Assembly (NCBI GenBank): GCA_003171335.1
Contig: PMYD01000093.1
Location: 1 to 37,457, forward strand
Source of the DNA: Phycisphaerales bacterium
Lineage (GTDB): Bacteria; Planctomycetota; Phycisphaerae; SM23-33; FEN-1343
Direction: 5' to 3'
Length of the DNA stretch: 37,457 bases
The translations under genes and the position numbers were made by a program. Below the pieces are notes generated by a model, which was not told where the DNA came from, searched no databases, and saw nothing but the letters and a program-made list of their open reading frames with translations. Positions 4,397 to 37,412 of the stretch are shown here, one piece after another; the first letter of the stretch is position 1; each line of letters begins with the position of its first letter.

Positions 4397-5329
4397 TCAG
4401 GTGGCGGCGATTTCGGGGCCGAAGGCCGCCAGGATGGCCTCGATATCCGCAAATGCCAGTCCGATACACGTGTCGGCCGCACCGTAGTAGATCCACAGTT
4501 GGTCGCCGCGGTGCACCCAGCCGGTGGGGAAGACCACGTTGGGCATGATGCCCGAGGTCTCGTACACCGCGGTGGGCTTGAACAGGTTTCCGGGCGCCCG
4601 GGCAATGACGCGATAGGGGTGCTCCGGGTCCAGCAGGGCCGCGCCCACACGATACACGCGATTGCCGCCGTACATCTTCACCCCGTGATAGAGCAGCAGC
4701 CAGCCCAGGCGCGTTCGCACCGGCGGGGGGCCGGTGCCCACCGTGACGGCGTCCCAGGCGGGGCCTTGGCCTTCGGTCAGCACCAGGTGCGGGTCGCCCC
4801 AGTGGGTCAGGTCGGGCGAGTAGGCGATCCAGATGTTCTCGACGCCGCCGCCGGCATCCGGTCGGTGCAGGGCGGCCCAGCGCTCGCCGAATTTTTCAGG
4901 GAATAGCGCGGCATCCTTGTTGTTAGGTGGGAAAATCAGCCCGATCCGCTCGACCTTCTCCAGGTCGCACGTGCGCGCCAGCGCCACGGCCGCACCGGCG
5001 TCGGAATAGGCGGTGTAGACGACGTACCAGCACTTCTCGCTCTCCAGCCAGGTGATGCGGGCATCTTCGCAACCCCAGGTCTCATAGCGGTTAGCCGGCA
5101 GCCCGTGCTGGAGTAGTGGGGCCTTTTCGATCCGCCAGTTGCTCACGCCGTCCTTGCTGCGGGCGATGTGAATGTTGGAGCGTCCCGTGCGCTCCTCCAC
5201 CCGCAGCAGCAGCACCACCTCGCCTTCCTGCTCGGTCACGCCCGGGTTGAGCACCGCCTCGGCGGCGTAGGGCATATCCTCGGCGGTGAGGATCGGGTTA
5301 CTCGCTTCGCGTTGGAAGAGGACGGCCAT
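4397..5329 (-). CDS. GH130-family glycosidase/mannoside phosphorylase-like enzyme
   Basis: A 310-residue five-bladed beta-propeller enzyme. Family 130 enzymes mostly cleave beta-mannosides by phosphorolysis, releasing alpha-mannose 1-phosphate. Features seen: NPILTAEDMPYAAEAVLNPG at the N-terminus (11-30), LLLRVEERTGRSNIHIARS (40-58), the family signature WGCEDARIT (85-93), YTAYSDAGAAVALA, then NKDAALFPEKFGERWAALHRP, WIAYSPDLTHWGDP, a glycine-rich GPPPVRTRLGWLLLYHGV, and the C-terminal IYYGAADTCIGLA. These follow the usual GH130 order and length. No signal peptide is visible, so it should be cytoplasmic, as expected for a phosphorylase. Which mannoside it uses, and whether it phosphorolyses or hydrolyses, cannot be told from sequence alone. 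It is transcribed divergently from the cyclodeaminase-like gene. Confidence 0.87.
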   Translation of the reverse strand: MAVLFQREASNPILTAEDMPYAAEAVLNPGVTEQEGEVVLLLRVEERTGRSNIHIARSKDGVSNWRIEKAPLLQHGLPANRYETWGCEDARITWLESEKCWYVVYTAYSDAGAAVALARTCDLEKVERIGLIFPPNNKDAALFPEKFGERWAALHRPDAGGGVENIWIAYSPDLTHWGDPHLVLTEGQGPAWDAVTVGTGPPPVRTRLGWLLLYHGVKMYGGNRVYRVGAALLDPEHPYRVIARAPGNLFKPTAVYETSGIMPNVVFPTGWVHRGDQLWIYYGAADTCIGLAFADIEAILAAFGPEIAAT

Positions 5330-6206: not shown

Positions 6207-7898
6207 CTAGCGCGTTGAATTCCCCCGTGCCCGAGGTATGCTCAGGATCGTGCGCCCGTAGCTCAGTAGGATAGAGCGGCGGTTTCCTAAACCGCAGGTC
6301 ACAGGTTCGAATCCTGTCGGGCGTATTTCGGAAAGCCCCTGTGAATGTTGGTTGTCGCCAATGTTTGCAGGGGCTTTCTCATTCTCGCTCGCATCGCCTT
6401 CTTGTGCATCGTCGCGCACCGAAACGCGGCAAAATGAGCCGTCTTGCGCCAAGCAATCCGACAAGACAGAATCAGTCGCTCTGGCGTCAATGCGCCGGCC
6501 ATGCCCATGATCGTCCGTCCTAGGGCAGCCTGCCGCGTTCTGTGCGGCTCTGGCGTTGTCGGTCCCTGTCGCCCGGACGGATTGTCGCGCCTGCATGTTC
6601 AGGTCGGGCAGCGCTGATACCGCATCGGCTTCCTGCCCGGCGTAAACGTGGCTGTACCGCGACAGGGTAAGGTTCACGTCGGAATGCCGCATGATAGCCT
6701 GGGCAACCTTGGGATGCGCCCCGCTTGCCGCCAGCAGACTTCCGGCGGTATGGCGCAGGGCGTGAAAATCGGCCACGCGCCCGGCGTCATCGGCATAGCA
6801 CAGGAAACGGGTTCCATCGCGGGCCTTGCGGTCCTGGGGCGTCGGGGCATCGTCCAGCCATGCCGCGCGGGCGGCTTCCAGATCATCGCGGAGCATTTCA
6901 GACAACGGCCGATACTTGGGCGGGTTGAACGCCTGGGCATCAGGCAGCTTACAGGCCAGGAAGTCCCGCAGGTCGGCGGCCGTTTCCTGGCGCAGCGGCA
7001 ATACGTCTTGGCGACGATGCTTGCTGTAGCCGGCGGCAACCGTCACGGTCGGCCGCTCACCATCCAGGGCGAAGCTCGAGCGCCTCAGGCTCGCCAGTTC
7101 GCCCGCCCGCAGGCCGGTTTCTACCGCTAGCCTGTACAGGGTCGCCCGCTCGGGTCCGCCCATGCCCAGGCGGTGGGGGCCTTTGCGGGTCGTGTCCAGC
7201 AGCCAACGCAATTCTTCAACGTCCAGCGCCCGCCGGTCGTGCCGGCGGTCGGTCCGCACGTTCAGGCCGTCCAGGTGGGCGACGGGGCTTTGCGTTGCCC
7301 GCCCATCCTTGACCATCCAGCGGCAGAATGCCTTGAAGGCCGCCAGATAGAAATTGAAGGTCTGCGCCGATTTGCCGCGCTTGACCTTGCCCTTGGCATC
7401 TTTCGTGTCGGCCCGCAGGTCGTCCAGCCACGCCATGACGCGGGCAGCGGATACGTCGGACCAGTGGGCAAACCCGCAGCCGTCGATCACCCTCCGCGCT
7501 CGGCCGCAGATAAGCTCAACATACTTGGGCGTATTGGCCTTGGCCGTGAGGTACTGCCGCCAGCCTGGGGCATCCGGCGCGCCGTCCAGGTGGTCCCGCA
7601 GGGGCCGCAGGGCCGCCACCCTGCCCAGGTCCAGCAGTCCAAACCGCCCCAAGGCCCGATGCAGCCGCGCCGGCAGATCTTCAAGCCAGCGGCTCATGTC
7701 AGGCGGCAGCGTCTGTGCGCCCGCCTTCAGCGCCACCAGATCGGCAATCCGCCTGCCCAGGGCTTCGGTCTGCTTGCGGTCGGTAAGGCCGGGGACGCGG
7801 CGGACCGCGCCCAGGTGGTCGGTATATTCGATATACCAGCTCTTTGCCTTGGCCTGCCGGCCGCTCCGGTCCGTGTAGGTGGTCTGGAAGGTTCTCAC
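6207..7898 (-). CDS. int: tyrosine integrase of the tRNA-Arg element (3' end formed by the att site)
   Basis: A 563-residue phage-type tyrosine recombinase that would integrate and excise the element. The N-terminal arm-binding part begins MRTFQTTYTDRSGR; a SAM-like core-binding domain lies at about 110-210; the catalytic domain carries ETGLRAGELASL (first Arg), SKHRRQDVLPL (Lys strand), HALRHTAGSLLA (His-x-x-Arg), IMRHSDVNLTLSRYSHVYAG (His and nucleophile Tyr). The start is GTG 7898, overlapping the XRE stop by four bases, so the two are translationally coupled. After the catalytic domain comes a low-complexity tail, then residues RPTGFEPVTCGLGNRR read from the antisense strand of the att core, then 22 residues from antisense tRNA and beyond, ending at 6207. 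In a circular form the same frame would instead enter the 67 codons at 12828-13031, giving about 608 residues. Confidence 0.93.
   Translation of the reverse strand: MRTFQTTYTDRSGRQAKAKSWYIEYTDHLGAVRRVPGLTDRKQTEALGRRIADLVALKAGAQTLPPDMSRWLEDLPARLHRALGRFGLLDLGRVAALRPLRDHLDGAPDAPGWRQYLTAKANTPKYVELICGRARRVIDGCGFAHWSDVSAARVMAWLDDLRADTKDAKGKVKRGKSAQTFNFYLAAFKAFCRWMVKDGRATQSPVAHLDGLNVRTDRRHDRRALDVEELRWLLDTTRKGPHRLGMGGPERATLYRLAVETGLRAGELASLRRSSFALDGERPTVTVAAGYSKHRRQDVLPLRQETAADLRDFLACKLPDAQAFNPPKYRPLSEMLRDDLEAARAAWLDDAPTPQDRKARDGTRFLCYADDAGRVADFHALRHTAGSLLAASGAHPKVAQAIMRHSDVNLTLSRYSHVYAGQEADAVSALPDLNMQARQSVRATGTDNARAAQNAAGCPRTDDHGHGRRIDARATDSVLSDCLAQDGSFCRVSVRDDAQEGDASENEKAPANIGDNQHSQGLSEIRPTGFEPVTCGLGNRRSILLSYGRTILSIPRARGNSTR
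6252..6325 (+). tRNA. tRNA-Arg (anticodon CCT)
   Basis: The 74-base sequence folds as a full cloverleaf: acceptor GCGCCCG (6252-6258) with CGGGCGT (6318-6324, one G-U pair), D arm GCTC...GAGC, anticodon stem GCGGT/ACCGC with loop TTCCTAA (anticodon CCT), and T arm ACAGG/CCTGT with loop TTCGAAT. The discriminator is A6325 and CCA is not encoded. Its 3' two thirds is the left copy of the 50-bp direct repeat that bounds an integrated element, so the element has restored an intact tRNA. Confidence 0.95.
6276..6325 (+). other. attachment site, left (attL core, 50-bp direct repeat)
   Basis: The repeat starts at GCGGCGGTTTCC and ends at the tRNA 3' end (GTCGGGCGTA). It is identical base for base to 13032-13081. 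It covers the anticodon arm, variable loop, T arm and 3' acceptor strand of the tRNA. The sequences diverge on both sides of both copies, so 50 bp is the full identity block. Confidence 0.92.
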
Positions 7899-8119
7899 TT
7901 TGATCCTGCCTTTCTTGCCTTTCGCCTGGGGCTCAGCTCCAGCCCCAGCGCATCGGCCAGCTTCGCGGCCGTTTCAAGCGTAAGCGTCCGGCCGCCTGTC
8001 ACGAATCGCGACAGTACCGCTTGCGATACGCCGGACAGCTTTGAAATCGCATATCGGGACAGCTTGGCGCTAAGTATCGCCTGCCGTAATTGCGTTTCGA
8101 TGTTTGCTCGCTTGTTCAT
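7895..8119 (-). CDS. XRE-family HTH transcriptional regulator
   Basis: A 74-residue single-domain Cro/C1-type DNA-binding protein. The helix-turn-helix is in residues about 12-60: LRQAILSAKLSRYAISKLSG then VSQAVLSRFVTGGRTLTLET followed by AAKLADALGLEL. Its TGA overlaps the integrase GTG as GTGA, so it is the first gene of a two-gene operon with the integrase and probably controls it. A good sigma-70-like promoter lies just upstream, with a 10-bp palindrome covering the -10, so autorepression is likely. It would serve as the element's lysogeny-type switch; no antirepressor is evident. Confidence 0.85.
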   Translation of the reverse strand: MNKRANIETQLRQAILSAKLSRYAISKLSGVSQAVLSRFVTGGRTLTLETAAKLADALGLELSPRRKARKAGSK

Positions 8120-8127
8120 CCGGGCTA

Positions 8128-8156
8128 ACTGTACAGTCGCTACGGTTACTTGTCAA
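8128..8156 (-). promoter_or_regulatory. promoter of the XRE-integrase operon with overlapping operator
   Basis: On the minus strand TTGACA (8156-8151, perfect -35) is followed 17 bases later by TACAGT (8133-8128, four of six for -10). The -10 lies within a perfect palindrome ACTGTACAGT (8128-8137), a good candidate operator for the XRE protein whose ATG is at 8119. The -35 overlaps the stop codon of the upstream primase-like gene (8153). Confidence 0.65.
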
Positions 8157-9193
8157 GGGGTAAGTATAATCTTTTTCTTGCGCGGCCTGATTTCTTTGCA
8201 CGGCCCGAAATCCACGCGGTATTCATTGCATCGGCCGGTATGCCCCCTGCGCCATTTCAGCAGCCCCGCGCGCTCAAGAACCTTCTTGTAACGATCAACC
8301 GTCGAAACGGTTTTGCCCAACAGCCCCGCCAGCGTTTCGCGCTCTGGAAAGATATTCCCGTTGCCCCGATTAAACGATGCCAAGAGGCACAGCAGACAGA
8401 ATGGCCCTTCGCCGACCTTGGCGATGATGCCCCGCCGCAAAGGGGCATTGGGGACGGGGAAAAAGCCGGGAGTCCAGCCTGCCGGGTAAATGACTTCGGC
8501 CGCGTCGATTGCCGCCGCAAGCGTGTCGGCCGTTAGTTGCCCCAGGGCTAGCCAGTCCCTCAAGTCCTTGTGCGGACTCGGGGGGAATAGCTTGCGGCAG
8601 GCGATTCCGGCCGTTGCCATCGCCACGGCGAGATTCTCAACCCCCTTCAATCCATTTTCGTCATTGTCCCCGATGATGCAAGGGCAGGCAGTCGGGAATG
8701 GCCGAAAGAAGTCGATAACAAGCGCCGGGGCGGACATAGCGCCGGGCCGCCCTACCGCCGAAAACCCCAGCGTCAAGGCAGCCGCCGTGTCGCTTTCGCC
8801 TTCGGTAATGATCCGGCAGTTCCCCCCGGTTACGTTCTCAGGCACAAACAGCCCCAGGTGTCCGCCGGCCAAGGCCAACTTGCTGCCGTCGCGCGTTCTT
8901 TGCCGAAACCCGACAATTCTGCCGCCTTGCCTCATCGGGAACGTGAATGCGTAGCTGCCGAACCCGATACCGAGCGCGCGCAGGCTTTTTTCATTCACGC
9001 CCAACCCGCAAGCGTAATTTCTCAGAGAGTTCTCAGACAAAGCGCGTACAAACTCATCTTGTCTTGTCTCTAAAGAAATCCCTTCCCCTAGAGACTCTCC
9101 GTCTTCTACGTCTTCAAGGTGGCGCACGGGTGCGCTGTCAGAAAGCGCATCGGTGGCCTGTAGGGGCTTGGGCTCTTGGCAAACACCGCTCAT
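8153..9193 (-). CDS. TOPRIM primase-like replication protein with C-terminal winged helix
   Basis: A 346-residue protein probably used to prime or start replication of the excised element. The middle carries a DnaG-like TOPRIM arrangement: GGRIVGFRQRTRDGSK and LGLFVPEN as the lead-in, then IITEGESDTAAALTLGF (catalytic Glu strand) and PCIIGDNDENGLKGVENL (Asp-x-Asp strand), followed by KDLRDWLALG. The C-terminal about 100 residues (FPERETLAGLLGKTVSTVDR, then LERAGLLKWRRG) look like a helix-turn-helix or winged helix. There is no zinc-ribbon or helicase domain, so it is shorter than a full phage primase-helicase. Start ATG 9193 is chosen because it overlaps the upstream stop as ATGA; the open frame extends further to 9283 but into the previous gene. 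Third gene of a coupled operon. Confidence 0.72.
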   Translation of the reverse strand: MSGVCQEPKPLQATDALSDSAPVRHLEDVEDGESLGEGISLETRQDEFVRALSENSLRNYACGLGVNEKSLRALGIGFGSYAFTFPMRQGGRIVGFRQRTRDGSKLALAGGHLGLFVPENVTGGNCRIITEGESDTAAALTLGFSAVGRPGAMSAPALVIDFFRPFPTACPCIIGDNDENGLKGVENLAVAMATAGIACRKLFPPSPHKDLRDWLALGQLTADTLAAAIDAAEVIYPAGWTPGFFPVPNAPLRRGIIAKVGEGPFCLLCLLASFNRGNGNIFPERETLAGLLGKTVSTVDRYKKVLERAGLLKWRRGHTGRCNEYRVDFGPCKEIRPRKKKIILTP

Positions 9194-9462
9194 AGCCGGT
9201 CCCCGCGATACGGGTACAAGGGGCAGGCGGCGGCGGTGCATCGGTTCACTTCCGCCGGCTCGTGGCCAACACACCCCAGACAAAAAGCCCGTATGGCGGC
9301 CTTGCGGCTCTTGCCGGCCCAGGCTTGCAGAAAAATCGGACGTTGCCGGGGCGGTATTTGCGCTAAGCGCCTTTGGCGGATGGCCCGCAGGTCGTCCCCG
9401 GCATATGGCGGAGTTCCTGGCGCGTGTTGGGGCCGGTCATCAGGGTCAATGGGTTGGTTCAT
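9190..9462 (-). CDS. small Cys-cluster phage-type protein
   Basis: A 90-residue protein. The N-terminal half is Pro-rich; the C-terminal half has RKAAIRAFCLGCVGH followed by EVNRCTAAACPLYPYR, that is four Cys arranged C-x2-C...C-x4-C. Small proteins with this 'AIRAFC-x2-C ... C-x-x-x-x-CPLYPYR' pattern are frequent in phages and phage-like elements next to replication genes; their function is unknown, and zinc binding is an inference. Its start (ATG 9462) and stop (9190) both overlap the neighbouring genes by four bases, so it is the middle gene of a tightly coupled three-gene operon. Confidence 0.75.
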   Translation of the reverse strand: MNQPIDPDDRPQHAPGTPPYAGDDLRAIRQRRLAQIPPRQRPIFLQAWAGKSRKAAIRAFCLGCVGHEPAEVNRCTAAACPLYPYRGDRL

Positions 9463-9695
9463 GGCCGCGCCCCCTTGTTGACGGCAATCCAGCGGTCGCG
9501 GCTTGGACAGCCCGCCCGGCACCATTCGGCCAGTTCTTCGGCCCGCCACAGGGTCCGCCGGCCAAGCCGCACCGGCAGCGGCGTCTTACCGGCCGTGTTC
9601 AGGCTCCACCATTTCCGCATGGACACCCCGCATAGGGCTGCGGCTTCCTTGGCGGATACCAGCAGCACGGCGGGGGCCGTAGGGCTTTCATTCAC
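9459..9695 (-). CDS. AlpA/excisionase-like helix-turn-helix protein
   Basis: A 78-residue MerR-superfamily HTH of the kind used as excisionase or activator in integrated elements. Seen: LLVSAKEAAALCGVSMRKWW (helix-turn-helix), then LPVRLGRRTLWRAEELAEWC, the usual 'wing plus recognition' layout (RxGRRxxWRxxEL). GTG 9695 is chosen because AAAGGA lies ten bases upstream; the open frame continues to 9851 but that part runs through an A/T-richer leader with a large inverted repeat and does not look coding. It is the first gene of the coupled set that includes the Cys-cluster protein and the primase. It may switch on excision and replication together, which is an inference from position. Confidence 0.75.
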   Translation of the reverse strand: MNESPTAPAVLLVSAKEAAALCGVSMRKWWSLNTAGKTPLPVRLGRRTLWRAEELAEWCRAGCPSRDRWIAVNKGARP

Positions 9696-9727
9696 GGGGC
9701 ACCGTTCCTTTGCGTGGGCGGTGCTTT

Positions 9728-9801
9728 CATCCGCCCGATGCGCGCAATTAGAAAGGCGAACCCTACGGACAAAATTCACGGTCGTTTTTGTCGGGCGGAT
9801 G
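9728..9801. promoter_or_regulatory. leader with 11-bp perfect inverted repeat
   Basis: CATCCGCCCGA (9728-9738) and TCGGGCGGATG (9791-9801) are perfect reverse complements lying just upstream of the AlpA-like gene. The 9-mer TGTCGGGCG within the right arm occurs again at 9913-9921 and in the att core. The region could be an operator or a leader structure. No clear -35/-10 pair was identified. Confidence 0.4.
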
Positions 9802-9931
9802 GGGATACAGCGGGGCGCGAAGAACGGGCCTGAAATGTCAAGGGGCGTCAAGCGCAGAAAATTTTTTGAGTATTCTTCAGAAACAACTTGCGCGCGTGGA
9901 ATTCGTCGGATTTGTCGGGCGGGAATTGGCG

Positions 9932-10675
9932 CTACTGGTTCCGATTCGCTCGCTGGCGCGCCCAGTCTTGATACTTCTCCAGGTCTTGCGGGGTGATGTC
10001 TTCATCCTCGCAGAATCTCTGCCGCGTCACCTCCGCTTCGTGCGCCTGATTCCATCGGCTCAGGATGCCCAGTCGTCTTTCTGCTTCTGCTGTAGGCAAT
10101 TTCCTTGCCCCCCGACGCCGTGAAGTGCCTCTAGGCAGCGGCAGTGCAGACAGGGCGGCATAGCGCCCTCGAACGTATTCGGCCTTTTCCAGTTGCACCG
10201 CCCATGCGTCGATAGCATCCGCCAAGACGGATATGCGGCATCGCCGCTTGCCTGCCGTCCCCGGTTTCAGGGTGTCATGGTAGGACTCTTCTTTGTAGAG
10301 ACACAGGAGCCGCTCAGCATCGGGCCGTGTAAGCGTCGCCTTAAGCCAGGCAATCGCCTCCTGGGCAGGAGCGCTACAGCCGTAGGCGTCGGCGCATAAG
10401 GACAGCACGTGCAAGTTGTCGCTGACGAGTTTGCCCGCCAGTTGCACGGCGGCCGAATGGGCTTTCAAGACTGAATCAGCTTCGCTCCGCTTGGCCTCAT
10501 CGGTTTCGGTCGGCGGACGCCCCGCGCTGGCTTGTTCCCATTTCAATGCCTTCAGCGCGCAGCGGGCCTGCCGCAGCGTTCCATTTTCCAGGCGTCTCGC
10601 CCATTCGCGGAGCGCATCAGCAACACGTTTTAGCTCAGCCCCACGGCCGTGATTTGGGCCGCCTTCTTGTGGCAT
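9932..10675 (-). CDS. hypothetical element protein, helical, charged
   Basis: A 247-residue protein that I do not recognise. It is rich in Ala, Arg and Glu and appears all-helical, with no signal peptide or membrane segment. Notable stretches are LKRVADALREWARRLENG near the N-terminus, a central SDNLHVLSLCADAYGCSAPA, KATLTRPDAERLLCLYKEES, and a basic C-terminal part (RRRGARKLPTAEAERRLG). It lies upstream of the AlpA/primase operon on the same strand with a 236-base gap, so it has its own or a shared leader. A DNA-binding or packaging-related role would be a guess. The ATG at 10675 is the only reasonable start seen. Confidence 0.6.
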   Translation of the reverse strand: MPQEGGPNHGRGAELKRVADALREWARRLENGTLRQARCALKALKWEQASAGRPPTETDEAKRSEADSVLKAHSAAVQLAGKLVSDNLHVLSLCADAYGCSAPAQEAIAWLKATLTRPDAERLLCLYKEESYHDTLKPGTAGKRRCRISVLADAIDAWAVQLEKAEYVRGRYAALSALPLPRGTSRRRGARKLPTAEAERRLGILSRWNQAHEAEVTRQRFCEDEDITPQDLEKYQDWARQRANRNQ

Positions 10676-10787
10676 GATTCACCTGTCCGTTGTCGTTCCG
10701 CCGGGTTGCCGTGTTGTCTCCAGCGAACCGTATCCGACGCAAGTCAGCTTTCCGCCAGTATTCAGCGTGCGTAGGGGGAGGACTTCG

Positions 10788-10988
10788 CTACTGCGATCCC
10801 GGCTTCTTCGGATGCCGTCGGAAGGAAAGGACAAGGCCCACGATGCAGATGCTCAGGATAATGAGCATCAGCGCCCACTGGGTGTAGGTAAAGCCGAGTG
10901 GACCCGGTTCACCCTTTGTAAGATAGCCCGGAATCAGTCCTAGCAGACGAGGCTGCTTCTCCACGGTGGAGGCGCCACTGTTATGCAC
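10788..10988 (-). CDS. small single-pass membrane protein
   Basis: A 66-residue protein with one strong transmembrane segment (about 39-56, WALMLIILSICIVGLVLSF) followed by a basic tail (RRHPKKPGSQ), which suggests that the tail is cytoplasmic. Nothing else is recognisable. Its first 49 bases overlap the 3' end of the gene upstream in another frame, so the true start may be somewhat further in. Function unknown. Confidence 0.45.
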   Translation of the reverse strand: MHNSGASTVEKQPRLLGLIPGYLTKGEPGPLGFTYTQWALMLIILSICIVGLVLSFRRHPKKPGSQ

Positions 10989-11257
10989 TTCGGTTCTTCG
11001 TATGTAGGTCTTTCAATCGTCCCCAGGTTTGTGATCCAGCTCCGCTTCGGGCCGCATTCAACCAGCCACCGTTGGCTCGTCCTTGTGTCCAGAATAACCT
11101 CCCCCGAAAGAGCATATCGTCCTCTCTGCCCTACTCTCTCGCACACGACAAAACCGGCGACAAGGCACAAGACCAGCGCCACCAGCAGCCCGCGGTTGAA
11201 CCATCTTGCGCGTGCCAGTCCCCTCTCCACCCTGTCCAGACGTTCTTCTGCCGTCAT
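10940..11257 (-). CDS. small membrane-anchored protein with N-terminal amphipathic helix
   Basis: A 105-residue protein: a charged helix (MTAEERLDRVERGLARARW), one transmembrane segment (about 22-40, GLLVALVLCLVAGFVV), and a soluble beta-rich part (YALSGEVILDTRTSQRWLVE). The helix-TM-beta layout suggests a membrane-anchored accessory protein. It is the most upstream gene of the element's minus-strand set. Homologous short proteins with an ERLDRVERGL-like start are frequent in planctomycetes, but I cannot name a family. Confidence 0.5.
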   Translation of the reverse strand: MTAEERLDRVERGLARARWFNRGLLVALVLCLVAGFVVCERVGQRGRYALSGEVILDTRTSQRWLVECGPKRSWITNLGTIERPTYEEPKCITVAPPPWRSSLVC

Positions 11258-11501
11258 TGGCGGCCCCTTTCATTGCTGACTCGACGCCAGGACTCTACGC
11301 CCCCGTAGAACGTCCTGCAACGCAAAACCTGGCACCGGTTTGGTTGCGGGCCGCAATTCCCGATATGCCGTCCCCATGAGCGCCGGGCTCGTTCTTGCCG
11401 GGCAAAGCACATCATGGTAATATGTCCTTTACTTAAGAATCCGCCGGCAGTGCGGGCTTGGGGCACGCGCTACCGCAGGTTCGTTGCTCGGGAGGAAAAC
11501 C

Positions 11502-12273
11502 ATGTCTCAGCATCGTGGCAATGCGGTTGGCAGTCGGGTCATTCTTTGGGCGGTGGGAAGTGTGGCGGTACTGTGCCTGCCGAAGCTGGCAGCAGGAGAG
11601 CAGGTGCTGACTATTCTGGATGAAAGAGACACATTTGCTGCGAGCATGCGGCCAGACTTGTCATACTTACTATCAGGCCAGTACTATTCGTGCGCACATG
11701 ACCTCAGCGGACTGGGCGGGTTTCACCACACTAGACGGCCATTATCAGGGTCTGTCGGCGGAATTTAGCTCACCGACTCTCCAAGGTAATCCGGCACCTT
11801 TCTCGTACCCTTTTTCTGGCGGCGAGCCCTACACCTTGCACATCGAGAACTACTCCTACGCAGGTCGCGAGGCCAGATTTAGCGGCGGTGGTGGCGAGGG
11901 CCCAAAGTGGTATGGTTTAGCCTCAATGAACATCTTCTGGCGTATGCAGGTAGGGGATGAACCGATTGATTTGACAATCGATTGCTGGTCAGACGACGGT
12001 TGCGACTCCTTCACCACCACCTTGCGGAACGAGACCACAGGCGCTTCTGTGGATTGTCCATTAGGAGAATACACACCCGTCACGTTGCTTCCGGGGCAAA
12101 TCTACGATTTCACTCTTGGCGCATCCGTTACGGATTTTCCGCAATTTTACACGCACTTAGGCGCGTCGGTGTACTTCGCATATTACGATCCAGTGACCGT
12201 GCTTCTTGTGCCCGAACCTGCGTCGTTTCTCTTGCTGGGATTGGGCGCGCTGGTGCTACGCCGGCGGAGATAA
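11502..12273 (+). pseudogene. PEP-CTERM secreted protein gene with a frameshift
   Basis: The 5' part starts at ATG 11502 after GGAGG (11491) and encodes a signal peptide (RVILWAVGSVAVLCLPKLAA) in one frame that closes at 11768. The 3' part is in the +1-shifted frame, open from about 11620 to 12273, and ends in a classical PEP-CTERM signal (VPEPASFLLLGLGALVLR plus Arg run). Neither frame alone makes both halves, and the switch must fall within 11620-11768. The mature part (WAGFTTLDGHYQGLSAEF, SFTTTLRNETTGASVDC) looks like a secreted beta-rich protein. A single indel in the gene or in the assembly would explain it. It is the only plus-strand gene of the element, so it may be passenger cargo. 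Confidence 0.65.
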
Positions 12274-12489
12274 CACTCGCTGGCCCCGGCCGGTTCGGCG
12301 CTGCCAGACAAAGCGGCGGAAACGATAACGCCCCAAGTCAACACGGCCAAGGTTGCAGGTGGCTGCCGCTCTCTGCGCCAAGCTGGCATGGGCGACGTAG
12401 AGTGAGAGAAGAAGCATTCGGTGTTCAGTCTGGCCGAGCAAAACCCTACGCGCGCCCGCTCCGATGTGGCGGCTTGCCAAGTGCTTCGG

Positions 12490-12630
12490 TCACCTTGTTT
12501 TTTCATTTCCGTCCGCTTGGCCCGCAACGCGGGCCTGCTGGCCGTCCAGGAAGCGAAGCGCATCGTCCAGGCGATACCAGACGTAGCGGCCGATACGGAA
12601 GGTTTTCTCGCTCCTGTCTGCACTCGGGGG
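12490..12630 (-). pseudogene. excisionase/HTH gene remnant (C-terminal part only)
   Basis: Read on the minus strand this frame gives EKTFRIGRYVWYRLDDALRF followed by LDGQQ, the typical end of a planctomycete excisionase-like HTH. It is preceded in frame by a TGA at 12631-12633 with no start codon, so the N-terminal helix-turn-helix is missing. It sits in decayed sequence between the PEP-CTERM gene and the right att site. Confidence 0.5.
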
Positions 12631-12827
12631 TCAAAATGAAAATGGTAAAGGAATTGTCGCGGGAACCTACGCTCGATGGCTCGGCCGCTTTCCCCCCGCT
12701 ACCCCCCTGTCGGCGCGTTGGTACTGGGGCATGGGGTCTGGGGGGAGCCCCCCTCTGCTCGTGATCGTTGGCCGGACGGCCGCAGCGTGGCACTTGGCGC
12801 GGCTCCTGGGGCTTCCTGGGGGGCGGC

Positions 12828-13031
12828 TTATGCCTTCGCGCCCTTGCTCGCCTTGACCATCGCCACGATGCCCGCCTTGATCGCTTCCGGCAGACTTGCC
12901 CAGGTGGTCAACAGGGCGGACAGGTCGGCGTCGGCGGGGGCGATTTCGGCGGCAAAAACGCCAAGCAATCCGACAAGACACTTTCCCGCCGCGTCGGAAC
13001 TGCCGCCTTGTGCATTACTTACACTGTCCGG
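12828..13031 (-). other. stranded integrase 3' codons (in frame through the att core)
   Basis: Continuing the integrase frame through the right att copy gives 67 codons that start PDSVSNAQ after ...TCGLGNRR and end at a TAA (12828). The encoded tail contains FAAEIAPADADLSALLTTWA followed by SLPEAIKAGIVAMVKASKG. A W-x-x-LP-x-x-I-x-x-GI-x-AMV pattern of this sort is what planctomycete integrases commonly end with. In the integrated state these codons have no start codon and are cut off from the integrase. In the circular element, joining at the 50-bp repeat would attach them in frame. Confidence 0.72.
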
Positions 13032-13081
13032 GCGGCGGTTTCCTAAACCGCAGGTCACAGGTTCGAATCCTGTCGGGCGTA
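13032..13081 (+). other. attachment site, right (attR core, 50-bp direct repeat)
   Basis: Identical to 6276-6325. It carries the anticodon arm, T arm and 3' acceptor strand of tRNA-Arg but no 5' acceptor strand or D arm, so it is not a tRNA gene. A second, different integrase gene ends 82 bases to its right, so this same copy may also be the left end of an older element. Confidence 0.92.
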
Positions 13082-13163: not shown

Positions 13164-14378
13164 TTAGTCGCGGGCATGCACAGCGTTCATCACAGCGCAC
13201 GGAAAGTGGCTAGATTCTGGGCCTTCTGCTCCACTTTTTGCTACGCCTAGCGCACCCTCTCTGGCCGCCCGCTCGATATCCTCCTCGGTCACCTGCAGGT
13301 AGTGCTTGTTGGCGATGAGGGCGTTATGCCCGAGCCACTTGCAAACCAGATGCACCGGGTACGCTCTGACCAGCTCCGTCTCGCAGGTGCTGCGCAGGTT
13401 GACAAACAGCTTGGGCCAGGGCAGCAGTCCGGCCTTCCGGAGGATCCGGCAAAACTGGGTCCGCAGGTTCGCGCTGGTATCGCGATAGCGAGTGATGACG
13501 TACTCGCTGCCAGGAGCAGCCTGATCGTAGCATTCCCGGAAGTATCGCCGCAGTTCGGGGAAGATCGGGACAATGCGCTCGACATGGTCGCCGCCATGAT
13601 GCTCCGTCTTGGGCGAGTGCACGGTCATTTGCTTCCAATCAACGTAATCCACATCGGCCCACCGAAGCGTGAGCACTTCAGAAGGGCAGCGCAGGCCGCC
13701 GAAGCGGCATAGGGCGAAGATCAGTCGCCACTGGGCATCGGGGCAGGCGTCCAGCACCTTCTGAGCCATGTCGCGGGTGACAAAGAAGCGCCGCTTCTCG
13801 TTGGCGGGGCAGGATGTCTTGATGTCCTCAAAGGGGTTCTCGACCAGAATTTTCTTACGCCTGCCCCAGCGGAAGAATTGTTTGGCGATTCCGGCGCGCC
13901 TGCCAGCGGTGGCGGGGGCGTACCTGGCTCGCATCTTGTCGGCCCACTCATCAACGTCGCCGGCTGTAATCGCAGTGATGTCTTTATCCTCGCCCCAGAA
14001 CCGCACCAGGTCTCTGCGCGTCATCTTCCACGAGTGTATTGTCCCGAACTTCACGGTCAGGCGGGTCTTGATGTAGCCGTCGATGAACGTCCCTAGCGAT
14101 GGACCACGCAGCGGCTCAACCTTCACACGCGGCTGTGCAAGGCCAAGCTCCACCAGGCGGGCATACGTCCGATCATCGCGTTCCGCGAGCCAGCGCGCCG
14201 TCTCATCCTTGATGATGCTTGAGCCGGTGGTGCTGGCTTTGATCAGGTCCAGCAGCCGCACCTTGACGTACAGGGCCTGCTCCTTCGACACGCGCCCAAG
14301 CCGAAAGGCCTTGCGCTTACCGTCCTTGTCGAAAAAGAAGATTGACCTGAGCCCGTTGTTGTTGACGATGCTTGCCAT
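13164..14378 (-). CDS. second tyrosine integrase (planctomycete NLRS-type)
   Basis: A 404-residue tyrosine recombinase distinct from the first. The N-terminus (MASIVNNNGLRSIFFFDKDG) is the beta-sheet arm-binding domain; the core-binding domain is at about 110-190; the catalytic part has CRFGGLRCPSEVLTLRW (Arg), SPKTEHHGG and ERIVPIFPEL, NLRSTCETELVRAYPVHLVC (box II with Asn in place of the usual His, Arg kept), WLGHNALIANKHYLQVTEED (His and Tyr). The Asn-for-His form is common among planctomycete integrases, so it need not be inactive. The gene ends 82 bases from the right att copy and has the same orientation relative to it as the first integrase has to the tRNA, which suggests a tandem, earlier insertion. 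Confidence 0.92.
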   Translation of the reverse strand: MASIVNNNGLRSIFFFDKDGKRKAFRLGRVSKEQALYVKVRLLDLIKASTTGSSIIKDETARWLAERDDRTYARLVELGLAQPRVKVEPLRGPSLGTFIDGYIKTRLTVKFGTIHSWKMTRRDLVRFWGEDKDITAITAGDVDEWADKMRARYAPATAGRRAGIAKQFFRWGRRKKILVENPFEDIKTSCPANEKRRFFVTRDMAQKVLDACPDAQWRLIFALCRFGGLRCPSEVLTLRWADVDYVDWKQMTVHSPKTEHHGGDHVERIVPIFPELRRYFRECYDQAAPGSEYVITRYRDTSANLRTQFCRILRKAGLLPWPKLFVNLRSTCETELVRAYPVHLVCKWLGHNALIANKHYLQVTEEDIERAAREGALGVAKSGAEGPESSHFPCAVMNAVHARD

Positions 14379-36103: not shown

Positions 36104-37312
36104 ATGCGAACGTACAGGCCCATGTACAGGATCGATGGCATCACGCATACCAGCCGGCGCTGGTGGATCGATCTGCACGACCACCGCGGCGTCCGTCGCC
36201 GCCTGGCCGGGTTGCCCGACCAGCGTGCGACAGAAGCCCTGGGCCGCAACATCGAGCGCCTCGTGCGCTGCGTTGCCGCAGGCGAGACGCCCGACCCGGC
36301 GCTGTCCAGATGGCTGGAGGCGCTGCCTGCCAAGCTGCAGATGGCCCTCGCCGAGATCGGCCTGCTGGAACGCGTGAAGGCGGCGGGCTTCCGCCCGCTG
36401 ATCGAGCACGTCGATGGTGCATCTGACCTGCCTGGCTGGCGTCAATCCCTCGATGCGAAGGGCGCTACCGCGCTCTACGTCCGCGTCGTGACGGCCAGGG
36501 TGTGCCGCATATTCGACGGCTGCGGATTTCGGTCCTGGAATGACATCGACCCCAGCAAGGTCATGGCCTTCTTGAGCGGACTGCAGGCGGGCAAGAAGCG
36601 CGTCGGGGCCGCGACGTTCAACGCCTACCTGGTCGCACTGAAGACGTTCTGCACATGGATGGTCCACGAGGGCCGGGCTGTGCACTCGCCGGTGGAGCAC
36701 CTGGAAGGCCCCAACGTGCGCGTCGATCCGCGTCATGCCCGGCGGGCCTTGCCGGTCGAGGAACTGCGGCGGCTGCTCAAGGCAGCACGTCAAGGCCCGG
36801 TGGTTCTGGGCATGTCGGGTCAGGCGCGTGCGTTGCTCTATCGCTTGGCCGTCGAGACGGGCCTGCGAGCCAGCGAGCTGGCCAGTCTGACCGCCGCGAG
36901 TTTCGACCTATGCAATTCGTCGCCCACAGTGATGGTTGCCGCCGCACATAGCAAGCGCCGGCGGCAGGACGTGCTTCCCCTGCGGCCCGATACCGCCGTC
37001 GTGCTGGGCGAGTTCATCAAGACCCTGCCTGCACAAGGCCAGCTATTCGCCGTGCCCACTGGACGCCTGGCGCGGATGATGCGGGTGGATCTGGCAGCGG
37101 CTGGGCTGCCGTACAAGGACGCGGCAGGCCAATACGCCGACTTCCACAGCCTTAGGCACTCCTGCGGCAGTCTGCTGGCCGCCGCCGGCACGCACCCCAA
37201 GGTGGCCCAGACGCTCCTGAGGCACAGCGACATCAACATGACCCTCTCCCGGTATTCCCACGTCTTTGCGGGCCAGGCTGCCGCGGCGGTGGCGGCATTG
37301 CCGAGACTGTGA
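36104..37312 (+). CDS. third tyrosine integrase, related to the first
   Basis: A 402-residue tyrosine recombinase, clearly homologous to the tRNA-Arg integrase over its whole length (TEALGRNIERLV versus TEALGRRIADLV, and matching core motifs). Catalytic motifs: ETGLRASELASLTAASF (Arg), SKRRRQDVLPLRP (Lys strand), HSLRHSCGSLLAAAG (His-x-x-Arg), LRHSDINMTLSRYSHVFAG (His and Tyr). It stops shortly after the catalytic domain and has no RPTGFEP-type antisense-tRNA tail and no stranded codons. ATG 36104 has AGGAG at 36092-36096. A partial gene with a good ribosome binding site follows 100 bases downstream. No att core was identified in the visible sequence. Confidence 0.92.
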   Translation: MRTYRPMYRIDGITHTSRRWWIDLHDHRGVRRRLAGLPDQRATEALGRNIERLVRCVAAGETPDPALSRWLEALPAKLQMALAEIGLLERVKAAGFRPLIEHVDGASDLPGWRQSLDAKGATALYVRVVTARVCRIFDGCGFRSWNDIDPSKVMAFLSGLQAGKKRVGAATFNAYLVALKTFCTWMVHEGRAVHSPVEHLEGPNVRVDPRHARRALPVEELRRLLKAARQGPVVLGMSGQARALLYRLAVETGLRASELASLTAASFDLCNSSPTVMVAAAHSKRRRQDVLPLRPDTAVVLGEFIKTLPAQGQLFAVPTGRLARMMRVDLAAAGLPYKDAAGQYADFHSLRHSCGSLLAAAGTHPKVAQTLLRHSDINMTLSRYSHVFAGQAAAAVAALPRL

Positions 37313-37412
37313 TCATGAATGGCGTCAAGAAGGTGACTAACATTTTTCTCTGGCGCGACGTTACCTCTTTAGTTACAGTGACTTACGTCTCGAACATCAA
37401 AGGAGATAAGTC

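Follow-up and report, generated by a model that had tools for sequence, protein, structure and literature searches.

A 6,756-bp integrative element lying in the tRNA-Arg(CCT) gene of a Phycisphaerales bacterium has its att core inside the reading frame of its own tyrosine integrase, and the two copies of that core lead the frame into different C-termini: a short host-encoded stretch in the integrated gene, and a conserved tail when the element's ends are joined. This anatomy recurs across a family of related elements, the tail is conserved as protein, and genes in which integrase, core and tail are already joined occur intact. The whole is best explained by an element with attP in frame that makes a tailed isoform for integration and a tail-less isoform, acting with an excisionase, for excision; we favour this interpretation while placing it slightly short of even probability.

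The window element and its divided integrase gene

The window analysed here is a stretch of 37,457 nucleotides (contig PMYD01000093.1). The features that define the integrase gene and its target are as follows.

6207..7898, minus strand: tyrosine integrase, integrated form, 563 aa (Pfam Phage_integrase, 1.9e-15)
6251..6326, plus strand: intact tRNA-Arg(CCT), the integration target (ARAGORN)
6276..6325: att core, integrase-side copy, within the integrase frame (exact 50-bp repeat)
13032..13081: att core, far copy (exact 50-bp repeat)
12828..13031, minus strand: 3' end of the integrase gene in its circle form, 67 codons plus stop, detached by integration (in-frame join; homologous tails in 35 elements)
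12846..12926, minus strand: conserved helical hairpin DLSALLTTWASLPEAIKAGIVAMVKAS (tail alignment; AlphaFold)

The 50-bp cores that bound the element at its two ends (6276-6325 and 13032-13081) are identical, and no third copy was found in the window. The only intact tRNA that ARAGORN found in the window is tRNA-Arg(CCT), on the integrase side. Here the minus-strand integrase frame traverses the core, enters host DNA and stops 22 codons on, giving the integrated protein a C-terminus of RPTGFEPVTCGLGNRR plus 22 codons of host sequence. In the circle (6276..13031), the same frame crosses the same core into 67 different codons, and joining 6276..7898 to 12828..13031 in silico gives an uninterrupted, in-frame protein of 608 aa that ends in DLSALLTTWASLPEAIKAGIVAMVKASKGAKA at the stop codon. 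A preliminary description of this DNA had proposed that the frame runs through the 50-bp core into 22 further codons, that the identical far core opens onto 67 codons at 12828-13031, and that the circular element would encode an integrase of about 608 residues. The coordinates and the join proved exact, and the joined protein carries the predicted tail.

The same description held that integration swaps the C-terminus only and spares the catalytic domain, and this is borne out by the position of the active-site residues. The tyrosine recombinase catalytic set is present in the window integrase (Pfam and alignment); R264, K293, H379, R382, H405 and Y415 are invariant in a 13-row integrase alignment, the Y415 codon lies near 6654-6656, and the catalytic residues through Y415 all fall within 6207-7898.

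Upstream of the integrase, the element carries further genes on the same strand.

7895..8119, minus strand: small Cro/C1-type HTH regulator, immediately upstream of the integrase gene (Pfam HTH_3, 1.1e-10)
8153..9283, minus strand: primase/replication-initiation-like protein of the element (PHROG primase families, ~3e-9; HTH_36)
9459..9851, minus strand: putative excisionase, HTH_17-like (PHROG 66 'excisionase and transcriptional regulator', 9e-8)

A PEP-CTERM protein gene also lies within the element on the strand opposite the integrase (11620-12273, plus strand) and is possibly cargo or a captured host gene.

Recurrence of the layout among Planctomycetota

Relatives of the integrase occur in 46 of 100 related genomes, and 40 loci were taken around them. 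A related-locus scan with the window protein alone gave no match, and an alignment query did find relatives; the plasmid and phage collections yielded only distant integrases (<35% identity). Nine elements, the window's included, have an att-like repeat of at least 18 nt at both ends, and eight of the nine join in frame to the same kind of tail. The ninth, L068, belongs to an AT-rich relative and has a tail (7590-7814) whose frame is shifted by one base relative to the integrase, an offset that could reflect assembly error, decay or frameshifting. A frame mismatch at the junctions, named beforehand as evidence against the proposal, was thus seen in this relative only, the window being in frame.

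A profile built from the nine seed tails matches in 110 of 392 Planctomycetota genomes, and one script was also run on 40 tail loci, 80 named loci (almost all Planctomycetota) and 30 viral contigs. The frame test took in 35 distinct elements that have a tail and an integrase and share a core of 12 nt or more. Tail loci were picked by tail presence, independently of frame; the source assemblies are mostly MAGs, and least confidence attaches to the five elements whose shared cores are shortest (12-22 nt). The integrase-tail join is in frame in 34 of the 35, and the core is read open by every integrase frame (35/35) and, backwards, by every tail frame (35/35). L199, from the cultured Planctomycetota strain ZRK34, is among the in-frame pairs. 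When the nine seed elements used for the tail profile are removed, all 26 that remain are in frame, for which the random-frame expectation is (1/3)^26. A stricter calculation, conditioned on both frames being open and using the stop-free frame count of each core, gives a probability of ~5e-5 when applied to the 18 non-seed elements that have cores of at least 40 nt. The in-frame join is beyond chance, the tail is a conserved module of the family, and the integrase-core-tail layout is a family-wide design. An excisionase-like gene is present in 33 of the 35 elements. PF00589 is the only domain reported for the family's integrases; Phage_integr_3 (PF16795) is not among the reported domains.

Of 120 distinct integrase frames that encode the complete catalytic domain, 93 run across an intact tRNA gene. 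The overlapped genes are of many isotypes and are read in sense or antisense, and one further frame (L222) overlaps a tmRNA. Tail ORFs correspondingly start mostly with tRNA-derived peptides, e.g. GIRTP, RIRTCDL or TRTRDPLIKSQ. A single frame spans integrase, tRNA-half core and tail in two records, the 15.6-kb contig L182 and the IMG/VR contig L243. Each holds one family integrase, no intact tRNA was found in the available stretches, and judged by their sequence both look as the attP state should. The L182 record is titled Paceibacterota and its relatives are planctomycetal, so that mis-binning is likely. Integrase, core and tail share a frame at locus L114 as well; because its first integrase is truncated and a second lies downstream, it is probably a tandem junction. 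At L131, two near-identical tail ORFs (reversed-strand starts 994 and 6423) lie upstream of a single integrase, which suggests a tandem or nested insertion. Large open frames at the tail matches G407:C30 and G095:C23 were set aside, as no recognisable integrase domain is fused to the tail there.

A minority of relatives end 10-45 aa past the catalytic tyrosine and are tail-less (L205, L067, L058, L232 and L237 are examples that end soon after the tyrosine). L073 has a degraded tail adjoining its integrase, and L228 (9745-11452) has a weakly tail-like C-terminus with no tRNA gene detected in the frame; here the hairpin may be an ordinary domain and the att site may lie elsewhere. These exceptions, to which incomplete contigs contribute, are scattered on the tree and do not form one basal clade, a placement that points to loss or decay on more than one occasion. 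Homologues that always lack the tail had been put forward as grounds for rejecting the proposal: the passage of 93 of the 120 frames through an intact tRNA gene upholds it for most of the family, and the scattered minority does lack the tail. Catalysis in this fold is therefore not tail-dependent in every member.

The detached tail and the candidate arm sites

The 35 tails align to a consensus of D-L-x4-A-W-x2-L-P-x3-R-x-A-I-x-A-M-V, in which L and W are invariant. Pairwise substitutions give a median pN/pS of 0.44, and differences fall at the three codon positions in the ratio 226:124:390. These comparisons indicate that the tail is under protein-level constraint. An ATG occurs between core and hairpin in just 4 of the 35 tails, rising to 17 when GTG and TTG are included. 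As most tails are without an ATG of their own, translation probably occurs only from the circle, with separate translation possible in some elements. Selection on the tail is most likely exerted in the circle, the state from which the integrase has to integrate, since the protein is conserved yet usually has no ATG of its own when integrated.

AlphaFold predicts the window tail as a confident helical hairpin (residue blocks 21-50 of the tail model have mean pLDDT of 92-98). For the full-length fold, the contiguous gene of L182 was modelled in place of the window's joined protein. The model shows folded N-terminal, core-binding and catalytic domains, a disordered segment at 418-528 and a high-confidence hairpin at 535-567. 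The disordered segment coincides with the stretch encoded by arm, core and arm. The main body resembles the Tn1549 and lambda integrases (Foldseek, 6en2 at 5.9e-11 and 1z1b at 7.1e-10), and its N-terminus, a possible arm-binding domain, is beta-rich, lambda Int being among the Foldseek matches. The hairpin or tail alone gave no PDB fold match in Foldseek; its sequence matches are marginal, and its PHROG matches are weak and of unknown function.

A 22-bp perfect direct repeat, not listed in the preliminary description, lies on either side of the core and supplies the candidate arm sites of the window.

6447..6468: candidate arm site, integrase side, TGTCTTGTCGGATTGCTTGGCG on the minus strand, in the part of the integrase gene that encodes the linker; distance to the core 121 nt
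12959..12980: counterpart candidate arm site, within the tail frame; distance to the core 51 nt

Both copies lie in the joined frame in different codon phases, and therefore what is repeated is the DNA and not the protein. Across the family, cross-core direct repeats exceed all 60 shuffles in 27 of the 35 elements. Most left copies stop 103-167 nt short of the core, and most right copies begin 36-63 nt beyond it; many copies consist of two tandem units, ~11-12 bp apart. Their position and form make these paired repeats candidate arm sites, and a lambda-sized attP, in a putative arm-core-arm order, would be written into coding sequence.

Isoforms, known systems and neighbouring integrases

In the mechanism that we propose, a small integrative element would hold its entire attP (arm, tRNA-derived core, arm) within the tyrosine integrase frame, after the codons for the catalytic domain and ahead of those for the C-terminal helical hairpin. 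The gene would be whole in the circle and would yield the tailed integrase. Recombination with a tRNA gene would cut the frame at the core, and the integrated copy would then encode an integrase with all catalytic residues and a short host-encoded stretch for a tail, while the codons of the hairpin would remain behind at the far end, in most cases with no ATG to start from. The tailed form would serve as the integration enzyme, in which the hairpin may aid assembly of the attP x attB complex or bias it, and the tail-less form together with the element's excisionase would serve as the excision enzyme. The isoform would in this way report and reinforce the state of the element, and through the tail swap the enzyme may sense whether its element is free or inserted. 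The simplest interpretation is one isoform for each direction. That recombination itself switches the isoform, with a circle-only tailed enzyme integrating and a chromosome-only tail-less enzyme excising with the excisionase, is a suggestion we make tentatively and would not call probable. Selection probably still maintains excision from the chromosome, because the integrated copy is catalytically whole and 33 of the 35 elements have an excisionase-like gene.

The hairpin could instead be an ordinary accessory domain, with both forms of the enzyme acting alike, a flexible linker tolerating the attP, and integrase and attP travelling together. The predicted disorder of the attP-coded stretch would allow any tRNA core to be accommodated, tail-less relatives occur, and for archaeal elements it has been argued that compactness could favour exchange (PMC8371274). 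We nevertheless consider this account rather doubtful, as the tail is conserved as protein though hardly expressible when integrated, which implies that the circular state needs it.

Archaeal precedent raises the prospect of a bacterial 'suicidal' integrase, whose tail would be needed for all recombination and whose integration would inactivate the enzyme and lock the element in place until another, intact integrase acted in trans. The attP lies inside the gene, a conserved part is lost on integration, the split archaeal integrase is inactive (PMC8371274), and several homologues in the host genome could act in trans. However, the integrated gene keeps its catalytic residues together with the N-terminal domains, tail-less relatives occur, and the excisionase-like gene retained in 33 of the 35 elements would be useless with a dead resident enzyme. 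Since the catalytic domain is intact and the excisionase-like gene is so widely retained, suicide of the archaeal style is unlikely.

Very improbable, in our judgement, is a degradation or instability tag that integration removes, as in the mycobacteriophage repressor. The geometry is the same, with attP in the gene and a C-terminus lost on integration (PMC9262239, PMC4557955), but the conserved part of the tail is an internal helical hairpin and not the final residues, and the ends vary (GAKA, PKQ, NPER, GAAQ, DG, RGE) with no ssrA-like LAA consensus. A separate small gene abutting the core, with an incidental joined frame, finds some room in the 17 tails with an ATG, GTG or TTG before the hairpin, but is disfavoured to the point of being scarcely credible by the in-frame join in 34 of 35 elements, the presence of ATG in 4 of 35 only, and the contiguous fusions in L182, L243 and L114.

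With the two-isoform reading preferred, the family can be set beside known systems. In archaeal suicidal integrases, stated to be exclusive to archaea, the gene is divided into int(N) and int(C), the latter holding the catalytic part (PMC8371274). Like the SSV-type, pTN3 and pT26-2 integrases, the present ones have attP in the integrase gene, are disrupted on integration and form a compact integrase-att module. Unlike the SSV type, the Planctomycetota family loses a C-terminal tail only, the catalytic domain staying with the N-terminal part; it is bacterial, with an excisionase-like gene (33/35) and arm-like repeats, and PF00589 is reported in place of Phage_integr_3 (PF16795). The likeness to SSV-type elements drawn in the preliminary description thus stands for the placement of attP inside the integrase and falls for the mechanism, as the systems are unlike in where the gene is split, in Pfam domain, in host domain and in the presence of an excisionase-like gene.

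The family shares predicted N-terminal beta, core-binding and catalytic domains and an excisionase-like partner with lambda Int and Tn1549 Int, and repeated candidate arm sites on both sides of the core with the lambda-type attP; the C-terminal hairpin, without a PDB fold match, sets it apart from lambda-type Int. In lambda, attP lies outside the int frame. The mycobacteriophage Giles integrase, also a tyrosine integrase beside a tRNA-derived core-like sequence, was considered as a precedent and rejected, its core being outside the int frame: in L260 the tRNA-3'-like sequence lies near 5140-5180, and the int frame stops ~100 bp before reaching it, at 5286.

In the integration-dependent immunity of mycobacteriophage BPs and its relatives, attP lies in the repressor gene and has no arm sites (PMC9262239, PMC4557955), and the lost part carries an ssrA-like tag (PMC9262239). 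Common to both systems are an attP in a coding frame, a tRNA target, and a long circular and a short integrated protein. Here, by contrast, the core is in the integrase and not a repressor, the lost part is a conserved hairpin with variable ends and not an ssrA-like tag, and paired flanking repeats accompany the core in 27 of 35 elements. A lambda-sized attP has been judged severely constraining for a protein (PMC9262239); the predicted disordered linker appears to be how this constraint is met.

No report of a bacterial integrase with attP in its own frame was found in open-access full text, and the arrangement is apparently unreported in bacteria. Self-interrupting recombinases have been described as exclusively archaeal (PMC8371274), and here a large bacterial family, spread over Planctomycetota and many tRNA targets, does so differently, sparing the catalytic domain and exchanging only a conserved tail. 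This explains why integrase frames of Planctomycetota frequently end in tRNA-derived peptides, and it calls for caution with gene models of integrated copies, which are without the true C-terminus. If the isoforms differ in direction, the integration state would be remembered in DNA by simple means, and genome engineering would gain a natural control element; if the isoform switch is true, the enzyme's own reaction would inscribe directionality in the gene.

Other integrases lie near the element and in its genome. A different tyrosine integrase of 404 aa (13164-14378, minus strand) ends 83 bp beyond the far core, facing it, and may be the trace of a further, older element in this tRNA site. 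The window's own genome, G000 (4.2 Mb), has ten matches to the integrase family, and these homologues are a possible source of intact integrase in trans. At the end of the window (36104-37315, plus strand) lies a broken related integrase with its pieces in different frames, ~89% identical to another copy of that genome (G000:C156).
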